A stretch of DNA of 36,818 bases from Candidatus Saccharimonadota bacterium (GTDB lineage Bacteria; Patescibacteriota; Saccharimonadia; Saccharimonadales; UBA4665): positions 1 through 36,818 of the forward strand of contig JARIHC010000003.1 of the NCBI GenBank assembly GCA_029288485.1, written 5' to 3'. The first letter of the stretch is position 1. Each line of letters begins with the position of its first letter. Below are positions 4,203 through 30,787 of this stretch, piece by piece. Under the pieces are notes generated by a model that saw only the letters and a list, made by a program, of their open reading frames with translations, was not told the origin of the DNA and searched no databases. Position numbers and translations under genes: made by a program.

Positions 4203-4487
4203 TTAATCTTGGCCGACAACGATATGGCTTTCCGGTGCACCCTCACCAGCAAGCCGCTCGTAGCCAGAGGGTATGCCCCTTATTTCTGCCTTAGCGCCAG
4301 CGGCATCAAGCGCCACAATCCCAGCACGCCACCCTGGAGGAGGACCATCAAGTAGTTCCCGCTCCCTTAATTCTTCCTCGCTGAGCGGCTCCCCACCAGA
4401 GGAAGTACGCCCTATAGTATCTGCCGCGTCGGCTTCGCCCGCGTCACCCTCTTCCGTATTAGTTTGTTTTCCTGATTCTGCAAACAT
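4203..4487 (-). CDS. acidic hypothetical protein (94 aa)
   Basis: The protein is rich in Glu, Asp, Ala and Gly (MFAESGKQTNTEEGDAGEAD..., then PLSEEELRERELLDGPPPGW) and probably largely disordered apart from a C-terminal GIVALDAAGAKAEIRG segment. A TATAAT box (4495-4500, minus) ends 7 nt before the ATG at 4487, favouring this start over an ATG three codons upstream that overlaps the -10 box. An overlapping plus-strand frame was judged the shadow because it lacks start signals. No function recognised. It converges on the YHYH gene with 6 bp between. Confidence 0.6.
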   Translation of the reverse strand: MFAESGKQTNTEEGDAGEADAADTIGRTSSGGEPLSEEELRERELLDGPPPGWRAGIVALDAAGAKAEIRGIPSGYERLAGEGAPESHIVVGQD

Positions 4488-7199: not shown

Positions 7200-7907
7200 A
7201 TGAAGTTACTGCTAATAGAAGACGACCGGGAGATTGCCGCCGCCCTATGCCAGGTCTTAGCTGCGTTTTACTCGGTCACCTTAGTGGGTAGAGGTAAAAG
7301 CGGTCTGGAGCAAGCTAAAACTAACCGTTACGGCTTAATTATTCTAGACCTTAATTTGCCAGACGTTAGCGGCTTAGAAGTTTGTCAGATTCTAAGAGCC
7401 GAGGGTTATCAAACTCCTATACTGATTTTAACTGGACAAACAAAAGTTATGGACAAGATACAGCTTCTAGATGCTGGAGCAGACGACTACCTCACCAAAC
7501 CGTTCAGTCTAGGAGAATTAAAGGCGCGCCTCAGGGTACTGCAACGACGCGGCCAGCAAGCTGACAAGGTCGCCGATTTTTTGTCTGTCGGACAACTTAA
7601 GCTGGATAGAACCAAGTATCAAGTTCGACGCGACGGCCAAGTTATATCTTTGCGCCGTAAAGAGTTTTCGCTATTAGAGTGTTTAATGCTACATGCCGGC
7701 ACAGTTGTTAGCCGCACTATTTTAGGCAACTATGCCTGGCAAACCGGCGACAAACCTTGGACTAATACCATTGATGTACACATTAAACATCTTCGAGACA
7801 AGATTGACCGTCCTTTTAAGCGGCCTTACATCCGTACCATTCACGGCCTGGGATATAAACTCGACGTTACGCAAACACCACAAAAGCCGGAAGCGGAGAA
7901 CCAATGA
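7200..7907 (+). CDS. OmpR/PhoB-family response regulator
   Basis: A 235-residue two-domain regulator. The receiver has E7-D8-D9, phospho-acceptor D50 (LIILDLNLP), switch T78 (ILILTGQ) and K100 (DDYLTKPF). The C-terminal winged helix (about 130-227) contains the typical LRRKEFSLLECLMLHAG, TNTIDVHIKHLRDKID and IRTIHGLGYKL segments. It would bind DNA as a phosphorylated dimer. A strong AAAGGAG Shine-Dalgarno site lies 6 nt before the ATG. Its last bases overlap the next gene, a soluble kinase (ATGA junction), so the two form a translationally coupled two-component pair. Confidence 0.96.
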   Translation: MKLLLIEDDREIAAALCQVLAAFYSVTLVGRGKSGLEQAKTNRYGLIILDLNLPDVSGLEVCQILRAEGYQTPILILTGQTKVMDKIQLLDAGADDYLTKPFSLGELKARLRVLQRRGQQADKVADFLSVGQLKLDRTKYQVRRDGQVISLRRKEFSLLECLMLHAGTVVSRTILGNYAWQTGDKPWTNTIDVHIKHLRDKIDRPFKRPYIRTIHGLGYKLDVTQTPQKPEAENQ

Positions 7908-15804: not shown

Positions 15805-15948
15805 CTAGGCGGTTTTGCTGCTCTGGCGGGCCGTGGTCCGAACCTTGACCGGTGATTTAGCATTAACCCGGCGAGCTAATTTAAGCCGCAAGTGGCTGCG
15901 GCGCATGCCTGACTTAGTTGAACTGGTTCGCTTTTTGGGCTGTCCCAT
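15805..15948 (-). CDS. rpmF: 50S ribosomal protein L32
   Basis: A 47-residue basic protein, starting MGQPKKRTSSTKSGMRRSHLRLKL-like (residues 1-24), which matches bL32 (typical M-x-V/x-PKRRTSKS...RMRRSH). It lacks the C-terminal zinc-binding Cys seen in many L32 proteins, so it is a Cys-free form. It is about 10 residues shorter than common L32. The gene is followed after 31 bp by nusB and is preceded by an AAAGAAAGG stretch about 20 nt upstream of the ATG. Confidence 0.9.
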   Translation of the reverse strand: MGQPKKRTSSTKSGMRRSHLRLKLARRVNAKSPVKVRTTARQSSKTA

Positions 15949-16018
15949 ACTGAGAAAGCTATACCTTTCTTTAGATTGACAAAACTTAACTATATATTAA
16001 CGGATTGCGGGCTTTTTC

Positions 16019-18493
16019 TCAAGAGGTGCTAATAACGAAATTAATGAGCTTGTCCGGTACGTAAATAGTTTTTTTGATGTCCTTGCCGCTAAGATAACTA
16101 GCTATTTTATCGTCACTTCTAGCAGCTTCGATAGCCCTAGCCTCGTCGGCGCCACTTTCAATCTGCAGTTGTCCGCGCAGCTTACCGTTGATCTGCACAA
16201 CGATCGTTACCTTATCTTCCACAAGGTATTTTTCATCGTATTTAGGCCAAGTGTCAGCATGAATACTGGTGCTATGCCCTAACTGCTGCCAGAGCTCTTC
16301 AGCGACGTGCGGCGCAAATGGGGCCATACAGGCTACTAAGTTCTCTGTAGATTCTTTCCAAACTTCATTCTTGCTAATCGATTTAGCTTTAATTTTATAA
16401 AGGCTATTTGTGCATTCCATTAGCGATGCGATGGCAGTGTTATAGCGGTTGTTTTCAATATCCTCGGTAACTTTCTTGATCATTCTGTGGGTAGTTCTGA
16501 GCAGTTCGTCTGCTATAGGGGTATTGAGCGATCCTTCACTGGCTTCATTGTATTCTTGAACAAGTGTCCAAACACGGCTAATAAATTTGAAGGTACCTGG
16601 CACACCTCCTGGATCCCAGCGCGCCCATATTTCCAGCGGCGCAGCAAACATCAGATAAGTACGCAAAGCATCAGCACCATAACCCTGATCAATAATATCC
16701 AGCGGATCTACACCGTTACCTTTGCTTTTGCTAAACATTGTGCCATCTTTGGCGGTAACTTTACCGTTGAACAGGAACTGCTTGAAAGGCTCCGGCTCGT
16801 TAACTAGTCCTATTTTTGTAAAGAACCGGGCAATAAACCGAGCGTAGAGCAGATGAGCCGTAGCGTGGTCGGCACCGTTATAAAAATCTATTGGTTCCCA
16901 TTTTTTGACGATGTCTTTGTTAAAGATTGCGGACTGGTTATGCGGATCAAAGTAACGGTACATATACCAGCTGCTACATATATATGTGTCCAGCGTATCG
17001 GTTTCACGCTCTGCTGGACCGCCGCACTTAGGGCAACTGGTCTTTAGCCAATCAGTAGCGCGGGCTAGGGCGCTTCGGCCATCACCGCTTGGCTGGAAAT
17101 CAGTTAGCTCAGGCAAAACTACAGGCAAATCTTCGTCCGGTAGCAACACCTGCCCGCACTTAGGGCAATCAACTATAGGTATTGGTGCGCCCCAGTAACG
17201 TTGGCGGCTAACACTCCAGTCGCGCATTTTATAGTTAACTTTTTCTTTGGCTGCGCCCTTTTTTGTAAGCCAGGCAATAATTTTGTCGCGGGCCGCTTCA
17301 CTTCGCTGGCCGCTAAACTCACCTGAATCAACCAAGATACCTTCGCTGGTGTAGGCATATTCCTTATTCTTAACTTTTTCGGCCTCGACTTCATCTTCAG
17401 GCAGCACGGTGACTCGAGCGGATATGTCAAACTTATTAATAAATTCGAAGTCTCTTTCGTCATGGATATCACCAAAGACAGCACCCGTCCCGTAGCCAGC
17501 TAAAACAAAGTCACCAACCCAAATTGGTACTTCTTCGTTGTTAGCGGGGTTTATAGCATAGGTACCCGTAAAAACACCCGTCTTTTCTTTATCAGCTTGT
17601 CGTTCTATTTCGGACTTTTTCTCAGAAGCAGCAATGTAAGCCTCAACTTCTTTGCTCTGGTTGCTTGCTGTTAAGCTTTTGACTAGGTCAAGTTCTGGCG
17701 CAAGCACAATGAAAGCAGCGCTAAATATAGTGTCAGCGCGAGTTGTGAATACAGTAATTGATTTATCGTTATCTTTAACTTTGAAGGTGATTTCAGCGCC
17801 GGTACTTCTGCCGATCCAATTCTTTTGCGCTAGCTTGACGCTTTCGGTCCAATCTAAGCTATCGGTCGCCTCCAATAGCTCGTCAGCATACTCAGTAATC
17901 TTAAAGAACCACTGTTTAACTTCGCGTTTTTCGGCTGGCGGATCATCTGGACCATCGTGGCGCCAACATTTGCCATCAATCACCTGTTCGTTTGCGAGCA
18001 CAGTGTTGTCTATAGAGCACCACCACTGCATACGCACATCTTGATATGCCATGCCGTGCTTATGCATTTGGCTGAATATCCACTGGGTCCATTTGTAATA
18101 TTCGGGGAGATGCGTGGCGATTTCTTTTTCCCAATCATTACTCCAACCCATAGCACGGTACTGCTTGTGATAACCAGGTATGATTTTGGCCATACTTTCC
18201 TGGGGGGATACGCCAGCTTTAATGGCGTAATTTTCTGCCGGCAGCCCAAAGGCATCCCAGCCAACCGGATGATAACTCTCATAGCCTTGTTGCCGCTTGA
18301 AGCGTGCCTTTACATCGCTGATAGTGTAATTCATGGCGTGACCAATATGAATACCGGCCCCGCTTGGGTAGTTAAACATGCTCATAGCAATGTATTTGGG
18401 CTTATCGCTGGTTAGATTAGCAGTGTAAGTGCCGCTCTCTTGCCAAATCTTTTGCCATTTGGGCTCAATTTCTTTGGGGTTGTAACGCTTCAT
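16019..18493 (-). CDS. leuS: leucyl-tRNA synthetase
   Basis: An 824-residue class I synthetase that charges tRNA-Leu. Present are MFNYPSGAGIHIGHAMNY (HIGH), the editing domain with VFTTRADTIFSA and GTGAVFGDIHDERDFEF, two zinc-ribbon-like CPKCG pairs, and the signature loop read as MFSKSKGNGVDP, in which the usual KMSKS is MFSKS (the catalytic second Lys is kept). The anticodon-binding and C-terminal domains follow, ending in DKLINFVISTS. There is no Shine-Dalgarno site; a TACAAT box with an extended TG ends 10 nt before the ATG inside an inverted repeat. Confidence 0.97.
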   Translation of the reverse strand: MKRYNPKEIEPKWQKIWQESGTYTANLTSDKPKYIAMSMFNYPSGAGIHIGHAMNYTISDVKARFKRQQGYESYHPVGWDAFGLPAENYAIKAGVSPQESMAKIIPGYHKQYRAMGWSNDWEKEIATHLPEYYKWTQWIFSQMHKHGMAYQDVRMQWWCSIDNTVLANEQVIDGKCWRHDGPDDPPAEKREVKQWFFKITEYADELLEATDSLDWTESVKLAQKNWIGRSTGAEITFKVKDNDKSITVFTTRADTIFSAAFIVLAPELDLVKSLTASNQSKEVEAYIAASEKKSEIERQADKEKTGVFTGTYAINPANNEEVPIWVGDFVLAGYGTGAVFGDIHDERDFEFINKFDISARVTVLPEDEVEAEKVKNKEYAYTSEGILVDSGEFSGQRSEAARDKIIAWLTKKGAAKEKVNYKMRDWSVSRQRYWGAPIPIVDCPKCGQVLLPDEDLPVVLPELTDFQPSGDGRSALARATDWLKTSCPKCGGPAERETDTLDTYICSSWYMYRYFDPHNQSAIFNKDIVKKWEPIDFYNGADHATAHLLYARFIARFFTKIGLVNEPEPFKQFLFNGKVTAKDGTMFSKSKGNGVDPLDIIDQGYGADALRTYLMFAAPLEIWARWDPGGVPGTFKFISRVWTLVQEYNEASEGSLNTPIADELLRTTHRMIKKVTEDIENNRYNTAIASLMECTNSLYKIKAKSISKNEVWKESTENLVACMAPFAPHVAEELWQQLGHSTSIHADTWPKYDEKYLVEDKVTIVVQINGKLRGQLQIESGADEARAIEAARSDDKIASYLSGKDIKKTIYVPDKLINFVISTS

Positions 18494-26786: not shown

Positions 26787-27863
26787 ATGCCAGAACGAGA
26801 GAATTCATTCTGGATCGATAGAAGTGGCCGTGTCGATAGACTCACTGGCAAGGCATGGTGCGTCATAGTCACTGCCGTGATCCTCGGCCTGTGGGGATTC
26901 ATTTTCGCTATCACCACGATTACCGAATATCGCAGCACCCCCGGTTCAGGCGAAGTCGGCGTCGTGCGTAACGGCAGCGACCCTTGGTGGCTGCCCGACT
27001 GGTTCGACAACCACCAGATCCGCGGCATCGTGGAAAATGGGTCCGGAAACACCGGAATCGGACTGGGTAGTGATATCCACTATTACCCTGTCTCGACTCA
27101 GCAGCGTTTCTTCACCATGAAGACCTGCTACTCGCATGACGACAAGGCTCATACGAATCCGGAAGTCTGCCCTGGTGCTGACGGTCTGGCTATCCAGGTG
27201 CCAACGTCTGACGGTGTCGAGGCCACGATTAGCGGCACCTTCTACCTGAACACCGTGTTCGATAACAGCGACGAAGGCAAGGAAAGTCTCGAAGATTTCG
27301 ACGAACAGTTCTCGACGAGGACCTTCGAAGGCAAGCATCCCTACAGCGGCACTCAAGGGTGGAAGAATTTCCTGGCTGCAATCGTTGAGCCGATCATCCA
27401 GAACAACATGCGGCAGACCGTTTCGGGCATCCAGTGCGCGGAACTCGTTTCATCATGTGCGCTGGTACAGAACAGTAGCGGAAAAACTGGTTTCGCAGCC
27501 ACCAAGGAAGGCGAAGCCAACGTTCAGCAGGTTGAGAACAACATCAACGAACACCTCAACTCTGACCTGGAAAGCACGCTTGGAAAGAAATACTTCCAGA
27601 ACGTGCAGTTCCGTCTCAGCAAGGTCGAGCTCCCCCTGAAGATCCAGGAGGCTATCGACGGCGCCCAGGCCGCATTCGCCCGCGTTTCTGAATCGCAGGC
27701 AGCAGTCAAGAAGTCCCAGTACGAAGCCAAGGCAAACTCAATCCGCCAGCAGGGCTACAACAAGTGCCCGACTTGCGCGGCCATTGACCAGACCAAGGCC
27801 ATTCCGCCGAACGTGCGCGTGTGGGCTCCTGGCTCGAAGGCAGCAATCGCTGTCGGCCGATAG
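26787..27863 (+). CDS. SPFH/band-7 domain membrane protein, foreign codon usage
   Basis: A 358-residue protein. A short charged N-terminus precedes one hydrophobic helix (about 18-43, VIVTAVILGLWGFIFAITTI), then an SPFH (stomatin/prohibitin) domain (about 45-275) entered by STPGSGEVGVVRNG and containing TSDGVEATISGTFYLNT. A coiled-coil stretch (AIDGAQAAFARVSESQAAVKK) and an end with CPTC and KAIPPNVRVWAPG follow; this last motif recalls actinobacterial and actinophage SPFH proteins as I remember them. SPFH proteins form membrane ring cages. ATG 26787 follows AAGGAA by 6 nt; an upstream TTG is less likely. Leu is CTG or CTC in 16 of 17 codons, never TTA or CTA, unlike its neighbours. Confidence 0.85.
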   Translation: MPERENSFWIDRSGRVDRLTGKAWCVIVTAVILGLWGFIFAITTITEYRSTPGSGEVGVVRNGSDPWWLPDWFDNHQIRGIVENGSGNTGIGLGSDIHYYPVSTQQRFFTMKTCYSHDDKAHTNPEVCPGADGLAIQVPTSDGVEATISGTFYLNTVFDNSDEGKESLEDFDEQFSTRTFEGKHPYSGTQGWKNFLAAIVEPIIQNNMRQTVSGIQCAELVSSCALVQNSSGKTGFAATKEGEANVQQVENNINEHLNSDLESTLGKKYFQNVQFRLSKVELPLKIQEAIDGAQAAFARVSESQAAVKKSQYEAKANSIRQQGYNKCPTCAAIDQTKAIPPNVRVWAPGSKAAIAVGR

Positions 27864-27869
27864 TGACAC

Positions 27870-28098
27870 TCTCCTGATTTAAGGAGATTAACAATTAAGG
27901 CAGTTTGAAGCCTCTAATTCAAGTGAAGACCTGGGGACAGGCCGGCGGGAAATCATCATTGAGCGACAGCTCACTGAAAACCCGCCGCGAAGACCGGTTG
28001 ATCCGTCGAGTCCGCTACAGGATTCCGCATCATTCCGTTTTCTTACAGAGGTAGGAAAATTCGTCGCAGCCTTTCGGCTCCGAATTATTCACTACCTT
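27870..28098 (+). ncRNA. highly structured 3' non-coding RNA of the SPFH unit
   Basis: Starting 6 nt after the SPFH stop, a series of perfect stems is visible: TCTCCT/AGGAGA (27870-27887); AATTA-AGGC/GCCT-TAATT (27893-27919, one bulge); CCTG/CAGG with a GGGA tetraloop (27930-27941); CGGCGGG (27943-27949) with CCCGCCG (27981-27987) enclosing TGAGC/GCTCA (27960-27973); and GAGGTAG (28048-28054) with CTACCTT (28092-28098) enclosing AATTCG/CGAATT (28058-28063, 28081-28086) and AGCC/GGCT. I found no coding frame with start signals. The hammerhead ribozyme begins 3 nt later. The RNA class is unknown to me. Confidence 0.7.
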
Positions 28099-28100
28099 CC

Positions 28101-28151
28101 GCACTCTACGAATGCGTGTTCGTACTGACGAGTCCAAAAGGACGAAAGTGC
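28101..28151 (+). ncRNA. type III hammerhead self-cleaving ribozyme
   Basis: All conserved parts are present and properly spaced. Stem III GCAC-T (28101-28105) pairs with A-GTGC (28147-28151); the cleavage triplet is CTC with H17 = C28106; stem I TACGAA/TTCGTA (28107-28112, 28119-28124) has loop TGCGTG; the core CTGACGA is 28125-28131; stem II GTCC/GGAC (28132-28135, 28140-28143) has loop AAAA; GAAA is 28144-28147. The open stem is III, so it is type III. Cleavage between 28106 and 28107 would leave a 2',3'-cyclic phosphate on the upstream RNA. The loops could make the usual stem I-II contact. Confidence 0.93.
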
Positions 28152-28169
28152 CAATTAGCTAACTTCTTT

Positions 28170-28207
28170 GATAAGCGTCGCTCAATGATGATTGTGCGAA
28201 TCTTATC
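28170..28207 (+). other. long hairpin closing the SPFH-hammerhead unit
   Basis: GATAAG (28170-28175) pairs with CTTATC (28202-28207) and encloses CGC-T-CAAT / ATTG-T-GCG (28179-28198) with a GATG loop. It ends 9 nt before the stop of the convergent ATPase gene, so it may terminate the unit; there is no strong U-tract. Confidence 0.5.
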
Positions 28208-28216
28208 TGTTAAATA

Positions 28217-30787
28217 TTAGCGTTTAAATATAGTATGTTCGGTTGGTTCGTTATTGTCGGCAATGCTGGTCGTATTTTTCTTACTGCGACGGCGACGGCG
28301 ACGCTTAGGCTTAATAATCTCTACCAACGAACCCACTGCTGCGTGCCCCATACCGTTGGCATGGTCAGCAGGGTCAGTTTTCTGCTGTTGCGCGTCTGGT
28401 TTCTGGGCCGCTGGTTTATTATGTGTCGTGGGTTTCCGCTCGCTTGCCTGTTTAGGCTTTTGTTTGGCAGCTCTGGGTTGATTATCCGGTTTGGCTTTCA
28501 GTTCATAGCGCTCATGGATATAATCTTCGGCAGCCTGGCGTTTAACAGCGTGCTGAGCCCGCGAGTGTTTAACTATATTAGCGGTCTCATCGTAGTGCTG
28601 CTCTGGCAGATCCAGCGTGGTAGCCGAGAACGCCGGTACCTTTTCGCCGCCGATAGTCATATTGATCACAAAATTACGATTGTCCATGTGTACTAAGTCG
28701 TACTCTTCAAATTTTGGCTCAAAGTAGCGCTGCATGCTGCGCGCGTCATCGGCACCCATCCGGAAAGCTACCATTGAACCAACATTGCCGAATACAGCGT
28801 CCTTAACATCCTGCGACATCTGGGCTATGTATTGGTTGGCTACTGTAAGATTTAGAGCATACTTGCGGGCCTCGCTCAAGATGGTAGCGAAACTGTCTGT
28901 TGCAAAGTTCTGGAATTCGTCAACATATAGATAGAACGGAATGCGCTCTTCGGCAGCGATGTTAGCGCGGCTCATGGCTGCCAACTGGATTTTGGTAACT
29001 AAAAGCGCACCAAGCAGCGCGGCGTTGTCTTCCCCAACCTGGCCGCGGCTAAGGTTCACTATTAAAATTTTGCGCTCGTCCATGATTTGACGAATATTGA
29101 AACTGCTCTTTGGCTGACCAATAATGTTGCGCACCAGCGGACTAGCCGTGAAGGCGCCAACTTTATTCAAGACCGGTGCTACTGCCTCGGCCGCAAACTT
29201 ATCATTCCAAGTAGCAAATTCTACTTCCCAGAACTGGCGCACAACAGGATCAGTAACGTATTGCATGACCGTTTTACGGAAAGCTTTATCGGTTAGCAAA
29301 CGAGTAATATCCAGCATGGTAGATTCCGGATATTCCAATAGTGCCAGCAGACTGTAGCGCAAAATATACTCTAGCCGAGGACCCCAGGACTCAAACATTC
29401 GCTTCAACACGCCTATGAGCTCAGAAGCAGTGTGAGTCCGCAGCATAGGGTCAGGCACTTCCATAGGGTTAAAAGCAATTGGAAACTCGGTGTCGGCCGG
29501 ATTAAAGTAAATCACATCTTGAGCTCGGTGGGCTGGTATGCGTTTTAGGGTGCTCATTGCATAGTCGCCGTGGGGGTCAATCACCGCAAAGCCGAATGGA
29601 CTATGGATATCGGATATGGTGAGAAGCTCCAAAAGGCCAGATTTACCGACACCAGTTTGACCCAGAATATATAAGTGGCGGCCACGGTCGACCCGTTGCA
29701 GCCCAAACGCCATGTTTTGGCCCCGGAAGTTAGTTGCGGCTATCGGGCTAATTTCTTGGCGGTTTTGTTCTGTAATAATTGGCAGATTAGCTGGCGGTTC
29801 GGCAGTCTGAGAGCGCGCCCACAGAATAAGCGGTGTTTCAACATTGGTGTGCGGCAAGTGGCACAGAGTAGCAACTTCTTCGATATTTAAAACAAAGGGT
29901 TTTTTACCCAGCTGACGGTGTTGATATTGAGTCAGCACAGCTGGATCCGATGCTACCCTTGCCTGCTCAAAACCGTTTAGATATGTAGTATTGAACTGTT
30001 TATAGCTAGCAACAATTGATTGGACCCTAAGAGCAGCTTGGTGGGACGAGGAGTTACCCCTATAAATAATGCGAAGAGTGGTTTCAAAGGCCAATTTATG
30101 GCTCTTTTCTTCTGCGCCGCTGGCGCGGGCTTGCTGGTATTCGCTAAGTTTAGGTGCCGGTGCGCCTTTGCTGTCTGCAGGCGGAGCCCACATTGCCTTT
30201 AAAATAGTACCCGGACCGGACCCAGATGCCCCGCCGCGCAGGCCGCTGACATAGCGCTCGCTTTTACGATGCCAATTCTGAGCGGCCGGTTGCATAACCA
30301 GCTGTATCCAGGCTTCCTCGTTTTCTTCAAACTTAGCAAGTGTAGCCGTAATAGCAGCTAGCGGATCTACCTCGAAACTCTGGAACGTCTTAATTGGCAG
30401 CGCAGAATTATTGACTAGTTTGAGTTCGGCAGCCAGCATTGACGTAGCCGCTGTCTCGTTGCTGCGCGAAAAATCGGTAACTTCAGAGATTTGCACACTT
30501 GGATATTGAGCGTATATTTGTTCTTCAACAAAATTTTTCAGATACTGGGGCACACATACGTAAAAGCCGATGCGCTTTTTCTGAACAGCAATCTCAAAAC
30601 TGATACGCACATGATGATGGACGGTTCCAAACCTTTTCTGGGTTGGCACCATAAGCAAACCATGCAACGAGGCAAACATCTGCTCGGCAGCCAGCTCCTT
30701 TTTGTCATTAGTGCGCGGCACCTGGAGCAGAAGCATGATAGTCTCGTTGTCTAGGTCTTCTTGTTCCTGTTTGGTTAGTTTTGACAT
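28217..30787 (-). CDS. HerA/TraD-like DNA-binding ATPase (type IV coupling-protein class)
   Basis: An 856-residue motor-ATPase protein of the type common in CPR genomes. The N-terminal ~360 residues include a helical, nuclease-free region. Walker A is GQTGVGKSG with K382; the downstream FAVIDPHGDYA and the Walker B FYLYVDEFQNFA with D623-E624 fit the FtsK/HerA/TraG superfamily; the ANQYIAQM motif resembles sensor motifs in this group. The last ~110 residues are basic and low in complexity (KPKRRRRRRSKKN), suited to nucleic-acid binding. No relaxase or mating-pair genes are adjacent. A TAAAAT box 6 nt before the ATG indicates a leaderless transcript. Confidence 0.85.
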   Translation of the reverse strand: MSKLTKQEQEDLDNETIMLLLQVPRTNDKKELAAEQMFASLHGLLMVPTQKRFGTVHHHVRISFEIAVQKKRIGFYVCVPQYLKNFVEEQIYAQYPSVQISEVTDFSRSNETAATSMLAAELKLVNNSALPIKTFQSFEVDPLAAITATLAKFEENEEAWIQLVMQPAAQNWHRKSERYVSGLRGGASGSGPGTILKAMWAPPADSKGAPAPKLSEYQQARASGAEEKSHKLAFETTLRIIYRGNSSSHQAALRVQSIVASYKQFNTTYLNGFEQARVASDPAVLTQYQHRQLGKKPFVLNIEEVATLCHLPHTNVETPLILWARSQTAEPPANLPIITEQNRQEISPIAATNFRGQNMAFGLQRVDRGRHLYILGQTGVGKSGLLELLTISDIHSPFGFAVIDPHGDYAMSTLKRIPAHRAQDVIYFNPADTEFPIAFNPMEVPDPMLRTHTASELIGVLKRMFESWGPRLEYILRYSLLALLEYPESTMLDITRLLTDKAFRKTVMQYVTDPVVRQFWEVEFATWNDKFAAEAVAPVLNKVGAFTASPLVRNIIGQPKSSFNIRQIMDERKILIVNLSRGQVGEDNAALLGALLVTKIQLAAMSRANIAAEERIPFYLYVDEFQNFATDSFATILSEARKYALNLTVANQYIAQMSQDVKDAVFGNVGSMVAFRMGADDARSMQRYFEPKFEEYDLVHMDNRNFVINMTIGGEKVPAFSATTLDLPEQHYDETANIVKHSRAQHAVKRQAAEDYIHERYELKAKPDNQPRAAKQKPKQASERKPTTHNKPAAQKPDAQQQKTDPADHANGMGHAAVGSLVEIIKPKRRRRRRSKKNTTSIADNNEPTEHTIFKR

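Follow-up and report, generated by a model that had tools for sequence, protein, structure and literature searches.

The stretch of DNA analysed here (the window) comprises 36,818 nucleotides from a Candidatus Saccharimonadota bacterium, and Table 1 lists the features found around a hammerhead ribozyme in its last quarter. A gene for an SPFH/Band_7-domain protein is followed on the same strand by a structured 3' UTR, a terminal hairpin and the ribozyme, after which a HerA/TraG-like ATPase gene converges from the opposite strand. A sequence-only reading had described a complete type III hammerhead downstream of a gene in a probable Saccharibacteria chromosome. All of this holds: every core base and the three helices lie at the positions it gave, the gene upstream is the SPFH/Band_7 gene, and the assignment to Saccharibacteria is correct. 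Two of its other statements have to be revised. What it called a structured RNA upstream of the ribozyme is better read as the 3' UTR of the SPFH/Band_7 gene, with its final hairpin abutting the ribozyme. The location, which it regarded as unusual, is instead typical: our family model finds seven copies in the window's genome, and many other Patescibacteria genomes, as well as viral contigs, have copies too. A stand-alone structured RNA family upstream was also considered and rejected; Rfam yields no credible match besides the hammerhead, and the structure sits between stop codon and ribozyme.

Table 1. Features around the hammerhead ribozyme, in window coordinates
Feature	Position	Strand	Basis
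SPFH/Band_7-domain protein gene, 358 aa, with 3' UTR bearing the hairpin-hammerhead	26787..27863	+	Pfam PF01145, E 1.3e-9
Structured 3' UTR with further predicted hairpins, from stop codon to terminal hairpin	27864..28047	+	Folding
Terminal hairpin GAGGUAG...CUACCUU adjoining the hammerhead	28048..28098	+	Folding
Predicted 8-nt single-stranded tail after the hairpin, post-cleavage	28099..28106	+	Hairpin end at 28098
Type III hammerhead ribozyme	28099..28153 (core interval 28101-28151)	+	Sequence, covariance models, family covariation
Stem III 5' strand GCAC (28101-28104) and U16.1 (U28105)	28101..28105	+	Partners 28147-28151; sequence
Predicted cleavage site, after C28106 (H17)	28106..28107	+	Hammerhead rule N-U-H
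Stem I, six pairs UACGAA (28107-28112)/UUCGUA (28119-28124), hexaloop UGCGUG (28113-28118)	28107..28124	+	Sequence
Core CUGACGA	28125..28131	+	Sequence
Stem II, four pairs GUCC (28132-28135)/GGAC (28140-28143), AAAA loop	28132..28143	+	Sequence
GAA and A15.1 (A28147; GAAA = 28144-28147), stem III 3' strand GUGC (28148-28151)	28144..28151	+	Sequence
Convergent HerA/TraG-like ATPase gene, stop codon 63 nt from the ribozyme	28217..30787	-	Homologue in 60/60 genomes searched

The ribozyme and its surroundings in the window

The window copy has the full conserved core (C3-A9, G12-A14, A15.1-U16.1 and H17) and three helices, with loops closing stems I and II and with stem III open. Its cleavage triplet, CUC, is the commonest among the Saccharibacteria members (26 of 53). 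The Rfam hammerhead model RF00008 gives this copy 36.8 bits (E 1.7e-6 on a 411-base stretch). The earlier expectation that Rfam hammerhead models should score the interval is thereby borne out as regards significance, but the score stays below the curated gathering score of 48.5, which is a database threshold and not a biochemical criterion. Because of this cut-off a default Rfam scan of the window omits the hammerhead and reports tRNAs only. Applied to the 36.8 kb of the window, a covariance model built on 31 hammerheads, all of them from genomes other than that of the window, finds one site only, 28099-28153, with 70.4 bits and an E value of 5e-20. Chance is excluded. The fold stability of the isolated ribozyme piece (66 nt) is not unusual (z -1.3); the evidence for the hammerhead lies in core identity and covariation, not in folding energy. 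Judged by these it is genuine. Sequence and covariation fit an active hammerhead, whose actual cleavage is inferred.

The region between the stop codon of the SPFH/Band_7 gene and that of the ATPase gene folds very stably (27864-28217: -120.5 kcal/mol, z -5.1, with none of 100 shuffles as stable), and the part with the terminal hairpin (28046-28106) reaches -20.5 kcal/mol at a z of -3.5. The tail that would remain after cleavage, CCGCACUC, does not have the U-tract of an intrinsic terminator. Downstream of an unrelated gene, at G000:C9:93509-93614, we find a hairpin and hammerhead that are 83% identical to those of the window.

The SPFH/Band_7 gene itself is rare: a homologue (E<=1e-10) was obtained in one of 117 other relatives searched. 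This sole other homologue (G113, 33% identity) is without a hammerhead, which shows that the linkage between gene and module is not universal. By BLASTP the lipoprotein of genome G001 has no SPFH homology to the window gene.

Two genera have a hammerhead convergent at the 3' end of the conserved HerA/TraG-like ATPase gene, namely at G001:C4:79619-79675 and at the window site. In addition, a perfect 17-nt inverted repeat (AATCATCATTGAGCGAC, at 27951-27967 and 28177-28193) encloses the terminal hairpin and the ribozyme and does not recur in the loci fetched. Pairing of its two arms could bridge the ribozyme within the 3' UTR; alternatively, the repeat may mark an insertion. When 20 ATPase regions were compared for synteny and empty sites, no other neighbour from the window was seen nearby save one weak Mur-ligase match, and for this reason no insertion boundary can be drawn around the window. 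Only one tyrosine recombinase is encoded in the window's genome, and it lies on a different contig (C3). For the window genes that were tested close to the ribozyme, none of the Pfam matches is of phage type.

A family of hairpin-hammerhead modules

Comparison of 39 aligned copies reveals changes on both sides in 15 of the 17 pairs. The number of cells changed on both sides amounts to 163 (against a shuffled mean of 46.6), and 92.6% of cells are paired. Sliding the partner strand by one to three positions lowers the covariation score at least five-fold. Across the family, pairing is 100% for stem II, 96.6% for stem I and 85% for stem III. Changes in the stems are overwhelmingly compensatory. 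A loop contact is known to speed hammerheads. The consensus of loop I, U-G-N-G-U-R in the Patescibacteria-dominated as well as the viral set, is consistent with such a contact, which is also discussed in Perreault et al. 2011 (PMC3088659).

The usual order of elements is a gene's stop codon, a stable hairpin, the adjoining hammerhead and then mostly the next gene. According to the mechanical gene calls of this analysis, most copies follow an ORF on their own strand that ends no more than 400 nt before them. In the Patescibacteria-dominated set this holds for 108 out of 114 copies and in the viral set for 66 out of 69; the mirror control gives 72 and 36. Viral spacing is tight: the hammerhead lies about 25-40 nt after the stop, and the next start about 20-25 nt further on. 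For Saccharibacteria the mean folding z is -4.35 in the 100 nt 5' of the ribozyme and -0.58 in the 100 nt 3' of it; for the wider set the two values are -3.61 and -1.42. The 3' UTRs of neighbouring genes are also hairpin-prone (mean z -1.55). In three sets the gap between hairpin and ribozyme is at most 6 nt in 83%, 84% and 97% of cases, with a median of 0-1 nt. Hairpins of Saccharibacteria measure approximately 45-105 nt and are branched or bulged with internal loops, and many other members have simple stems of 18-30 nt. The tail between the hairpin and the cut has a median length of 9, 8 and 6 nt in these sets (8 nt in the window), and the 8 nt after the hairpin show no U-tract (U fractions of 0.42, 0.37 and 0.30).

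A simple scan finds terminator-like sites downstream of only about 5-10% of the genomic copies. Locus L092 has a terminator-like hairpin after the ribozyme. In L090 two convergent genes each end in a hairpin-hammerhead (7242-7296 on the plus and 7326-7382 on the minus strand), and a terminator-like hairpin common to both lies between them. From the arrangement of these two loci, transcription seems to continue past the ribozyme in some cases. Parcubacteria-type loci (L113, L114, L142, L143, L152 and L158) share a GTTCTTT-like motif a short distance behind the ribozyme; it may be a leader of the following gene or a signal for the start of its transcription.

Copies are present in 18 of 54 genomes of the same family (at least 90% complete), but very unevenly: G001 has 28 and its four congeners none, G011 has 8, and G044 and G065 have 7 each. 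Throughout Patescibacteria at least 40 of 380 genomes yield a match at E<=1e-6, which is a lower bound because only 15 candidates were scored per genome. The exact core pattern, searched over 84,980 species genomes, gives at least 111 loci that parse as hammerheads. Among the matches listed, only three loci come from named non-Patescibacteria; most belong to named candidate-phyla bacteria and about a quarter have no informative name. Phylum specificity rests on this core-pattern scan, and the pattern was derived from Saccharibacteria copies and may favour close relatives. The three loci are L130 (7277-7299 and 7547-7569, a Polynucleobacter MAG), L114 (a Phycisphaerales MAG) and L222 (Smithella SCADC); they could be binning errors or real transfers. 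In viral contigs 80 stretches carry the core pattern, and 74 of 84 pattern matches parse as full hammerheads. Direct DNA relatives were found neither in named phages nor in named plasmids. In nine loci, Rfam lists no copy at the RF00008 gathering threshold, and since this threshold excludes members, the family is easily missed. Overall, the hairpin-hammerhead family is spread across Patescibacteria and phages and is largely unnoticed.

The genes that end in the module

A set of 99 hammerhead-linked proteins matches only 19 Pfam families in total; 99 neighbours of matching length, taken from the same loci, match 97. The genes with the module are accessory orphans, and their functions are unrelated to one another. 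Two of the gene families are informative about inheritance. Of 344 genomes of the order, three from two families have a DUF2807 gene (Pfam), with 51% and 30% identity to the query; hairpin and hammerhead follow it in all three. A predicted lipoprotein gene occurs in 2 of the 344 genomes, from different families and at 45% identity; both genes have the module, with identical stem I bases. These two gene families show that the module can stay with sparse genes across genera, down to 30-51% protein identity.

In some genomes (G001:C6, G266:C16) the copies form tandem same-strand arrays with one to few genes between them, in which orphan genes each end in a module; G266 has 6 copies on one contig. 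Near-identical intergenic modules also occur beside unrelated genes (172 bp, 96.5%). Within the G266:C16 locus (L387), 5' leader modules that are 98% identical over 164 bp precede different orphan genes without a hammerhead (15937-16100 and 17492-17654; also 16842-16966), and they match the leader after two hammerheads at 1699-1785 and 4307-4392. The array region of L047 has little DNA similarity to four congeners except for a tRNA region. The sparse, patchy cargo suggests gene mobility of some kind.

Three small hammerhead-linked proteins (L085:3230-3826, L047:7654-8082 and L099:13409-13723) have a weak, below-cut-off similarity to the Nfu_N domain. A cargo protein family of this type was rejected: a profile made from several seeds gained only one duplicate of one of them, and the Pfam matches remain below cut-off.

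A proposed ribozyme-made mRNA end and its alternatives

A concrete role for the hammerhead is suggested by three things together: the hairpin next to it, its fixed place behind a stop codon and its joint inheritance with sparse genes. We consider it probable that gene, hairpin and hammerhead are transcribed as one RNA, and that self-cleavage provides the mRNA with a hairpin end without termination. Once RNA polymerase has cleared the ribozyme, the RNA would fold and cut itself after H17 (C28106 in the window). The upstream product would be an mRNA with a stable hairpin and a tail of about 6-9 nt bearing a 2',3'-cyclic phosphate. Such an end would resemble the product of an intrinsic terminator, though made without a termination event, and from general RNA biochemistry it should resist 3' exonucleases. 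The downstream product, a ribozyme remnant with a 5'-OH, would become the leader of the next gene or be discarded. Because the module is attached to, and can stay with, sparse and poorly conserved accessory genes, its purpose may be to give a newly arrived gene a 3' end that is independent of the host. Making 3' ends without termination would also fit the phage layout, where the next start comes about 20 nt later, and the convergent pair of L090 with its common terminator-like hairpin.

Alternatively, the module could be a mobility site, that is, an integron-like or other cassette element in which array order and shuffling depend on the intergenic module and the ribozyme is incidental or secondary. 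The tandem arrays, the near-identical modules beside unrelated genes, the orphan cargo and the extreme patchiness (28 copies against none in four congeners) are in line with it. Nevertheless we regard it as unlikely. Most genomes tested, including G266 and the 28-copy G001, have one tyrosine recombinase and no dedicated integrase, which makes a dedicated integron-type system improbable. Also, the hairpins (listed and read by eye) display no visible common recombination core or end motif, neither the window nor the L047 comparison revealed an empty site, and paired changes preserve an RNA catalyst that a DNA recombination site would not need. The same arrays contain single genes flanked by same-strand hammerheads, and the multiple diverged copies per genome might likewise point to a circular-RNA or retrozyme-like element, whose flanking hammerheads would release an RNA of unit length for ligation and, perhaps, for reverse transcription into new sites. 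However, many copies are solitary, no retrozyme-type unit repeats were seen, and the RtcB ligase is absent from G000, G001, G011, G044 and G065, and only 2 of the 54 genomes of the family encode it. As RtcB is absent from most of these genomes, circles that depend on it are unlikely, and the idea as a whole is very improbable. A combination, in which gene-hairpin-hammerhead units move laterally as cassettes through Patescibacteria and their phages while the ribozyme both aids their spread (through an RNA or RNA-circle intermediate) and ends the mRNA, has in our view only a slim chance of being correct.

The large and elaborate hairpins of Saccharibacteria (about 45-105 nt, with internal loops) could speak for a regulated ribozyme, in which cleavage is switched by the variable hairpin itself or by a ligand or protein that binds it, so as to control the gene. 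Yet no aptamer-like core common to the hairpins can be seen. They vary widely from copy to copy, many members outside Saccharibacteria have simple stems of 18-30 nt, and the functions of the cargo genes are unrelated; regulation of this kind is accordingly quite doubtful. Finally, a hammerhead-like motif without function, arisen by chance or dead, would agree with the Rfam score below the gathering threshold and with the ordinary stability of the isolated piece. Given the E value of 5e-20 with an independent model, the covariation, and the strand- and position-specific placement in more than 200 copies, this is scarcely credible, and as an account of the whole family it is refuted.

Cleavage that ends the mRNA is the reading we prefer, and it can be set beside several known systems. 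With Rfam RF00008 type III hammerheads the family shares the CUGANGA...GAAA core, U16.1-A15.1, H17 and three stems with stem III open; different are the short stem II with an AAAA-type tetraloop, the UGNGUR loop I and the hairpin fused directly 5'. Compared to an intrinsic (Rho-independent) terminator, a stable hairpin and short tail are likewise found at the mRNA 3' end, but there is no U-tract (U fraction 0.30-0.42) and the end would come from self-cleavage. As in integron gene cassettes (gene plus attC), orphan genes each have a structured element and are sometimes arranged in tandem same-strand arrays; here, however, there is no dedicated integrase, no attC-type core is visible by eye, and what follows the gene is a catalytic RNA. 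Retrozymes and viroid-like circular RNAs (PMC4918200, PMC7761336) also have type III hammerheads in several genomic copies, whereas we find a single ribozyme per 3' UTR, protein-coding cargo and mostly no RtcB. A retrozyme has two hammerheads bounding a non-coding, retrotransposed unit; most of our loci have one hammerhead per unit.

Perreault et al. 2011 (PMC3088659) found bacterial hammerheads by the hundreds, many of them in prophages or close to integrases and sometimes flanking genes, and suggested that they process (phage) transcripts. The clustered hammerheads of that paper flank single genes or small gene blocks, as ours do. In contrast, the passages found there describe hairpin loops only within the ribozyme, with no abutting 5' hairpin, and the present family has many copies in Patescibacteria genomes that are tied to sparse accessory genes. 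The prophage or near-integrase setting given there does not apply to the window, though related modules do occur in viral contigs. A 2017 review (PMC6155905) considers the roles of bacterial hammerheads open and mentions small non-conserved ORFs that adjoin them. In the open-access literature we found no link of hammerheads to Saccharibacteria, Patescibacteria, Parcubacteria or CPR bacteria (subscription papers were mostly, and bioRxiv wholly, outside the scope of this search). Within that literature three features appear to be new, namely the hairpin next to the ribozyme, the spread throughout Patescibacteria and the linkage to genes; this does not establish priority.

If our reading is true, the module would offer a compact, host-independent part for genetic engineering. 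For the organisms themselves it would mean that a very large bacterial group has a ribozyme-based way of ending mRNAs.
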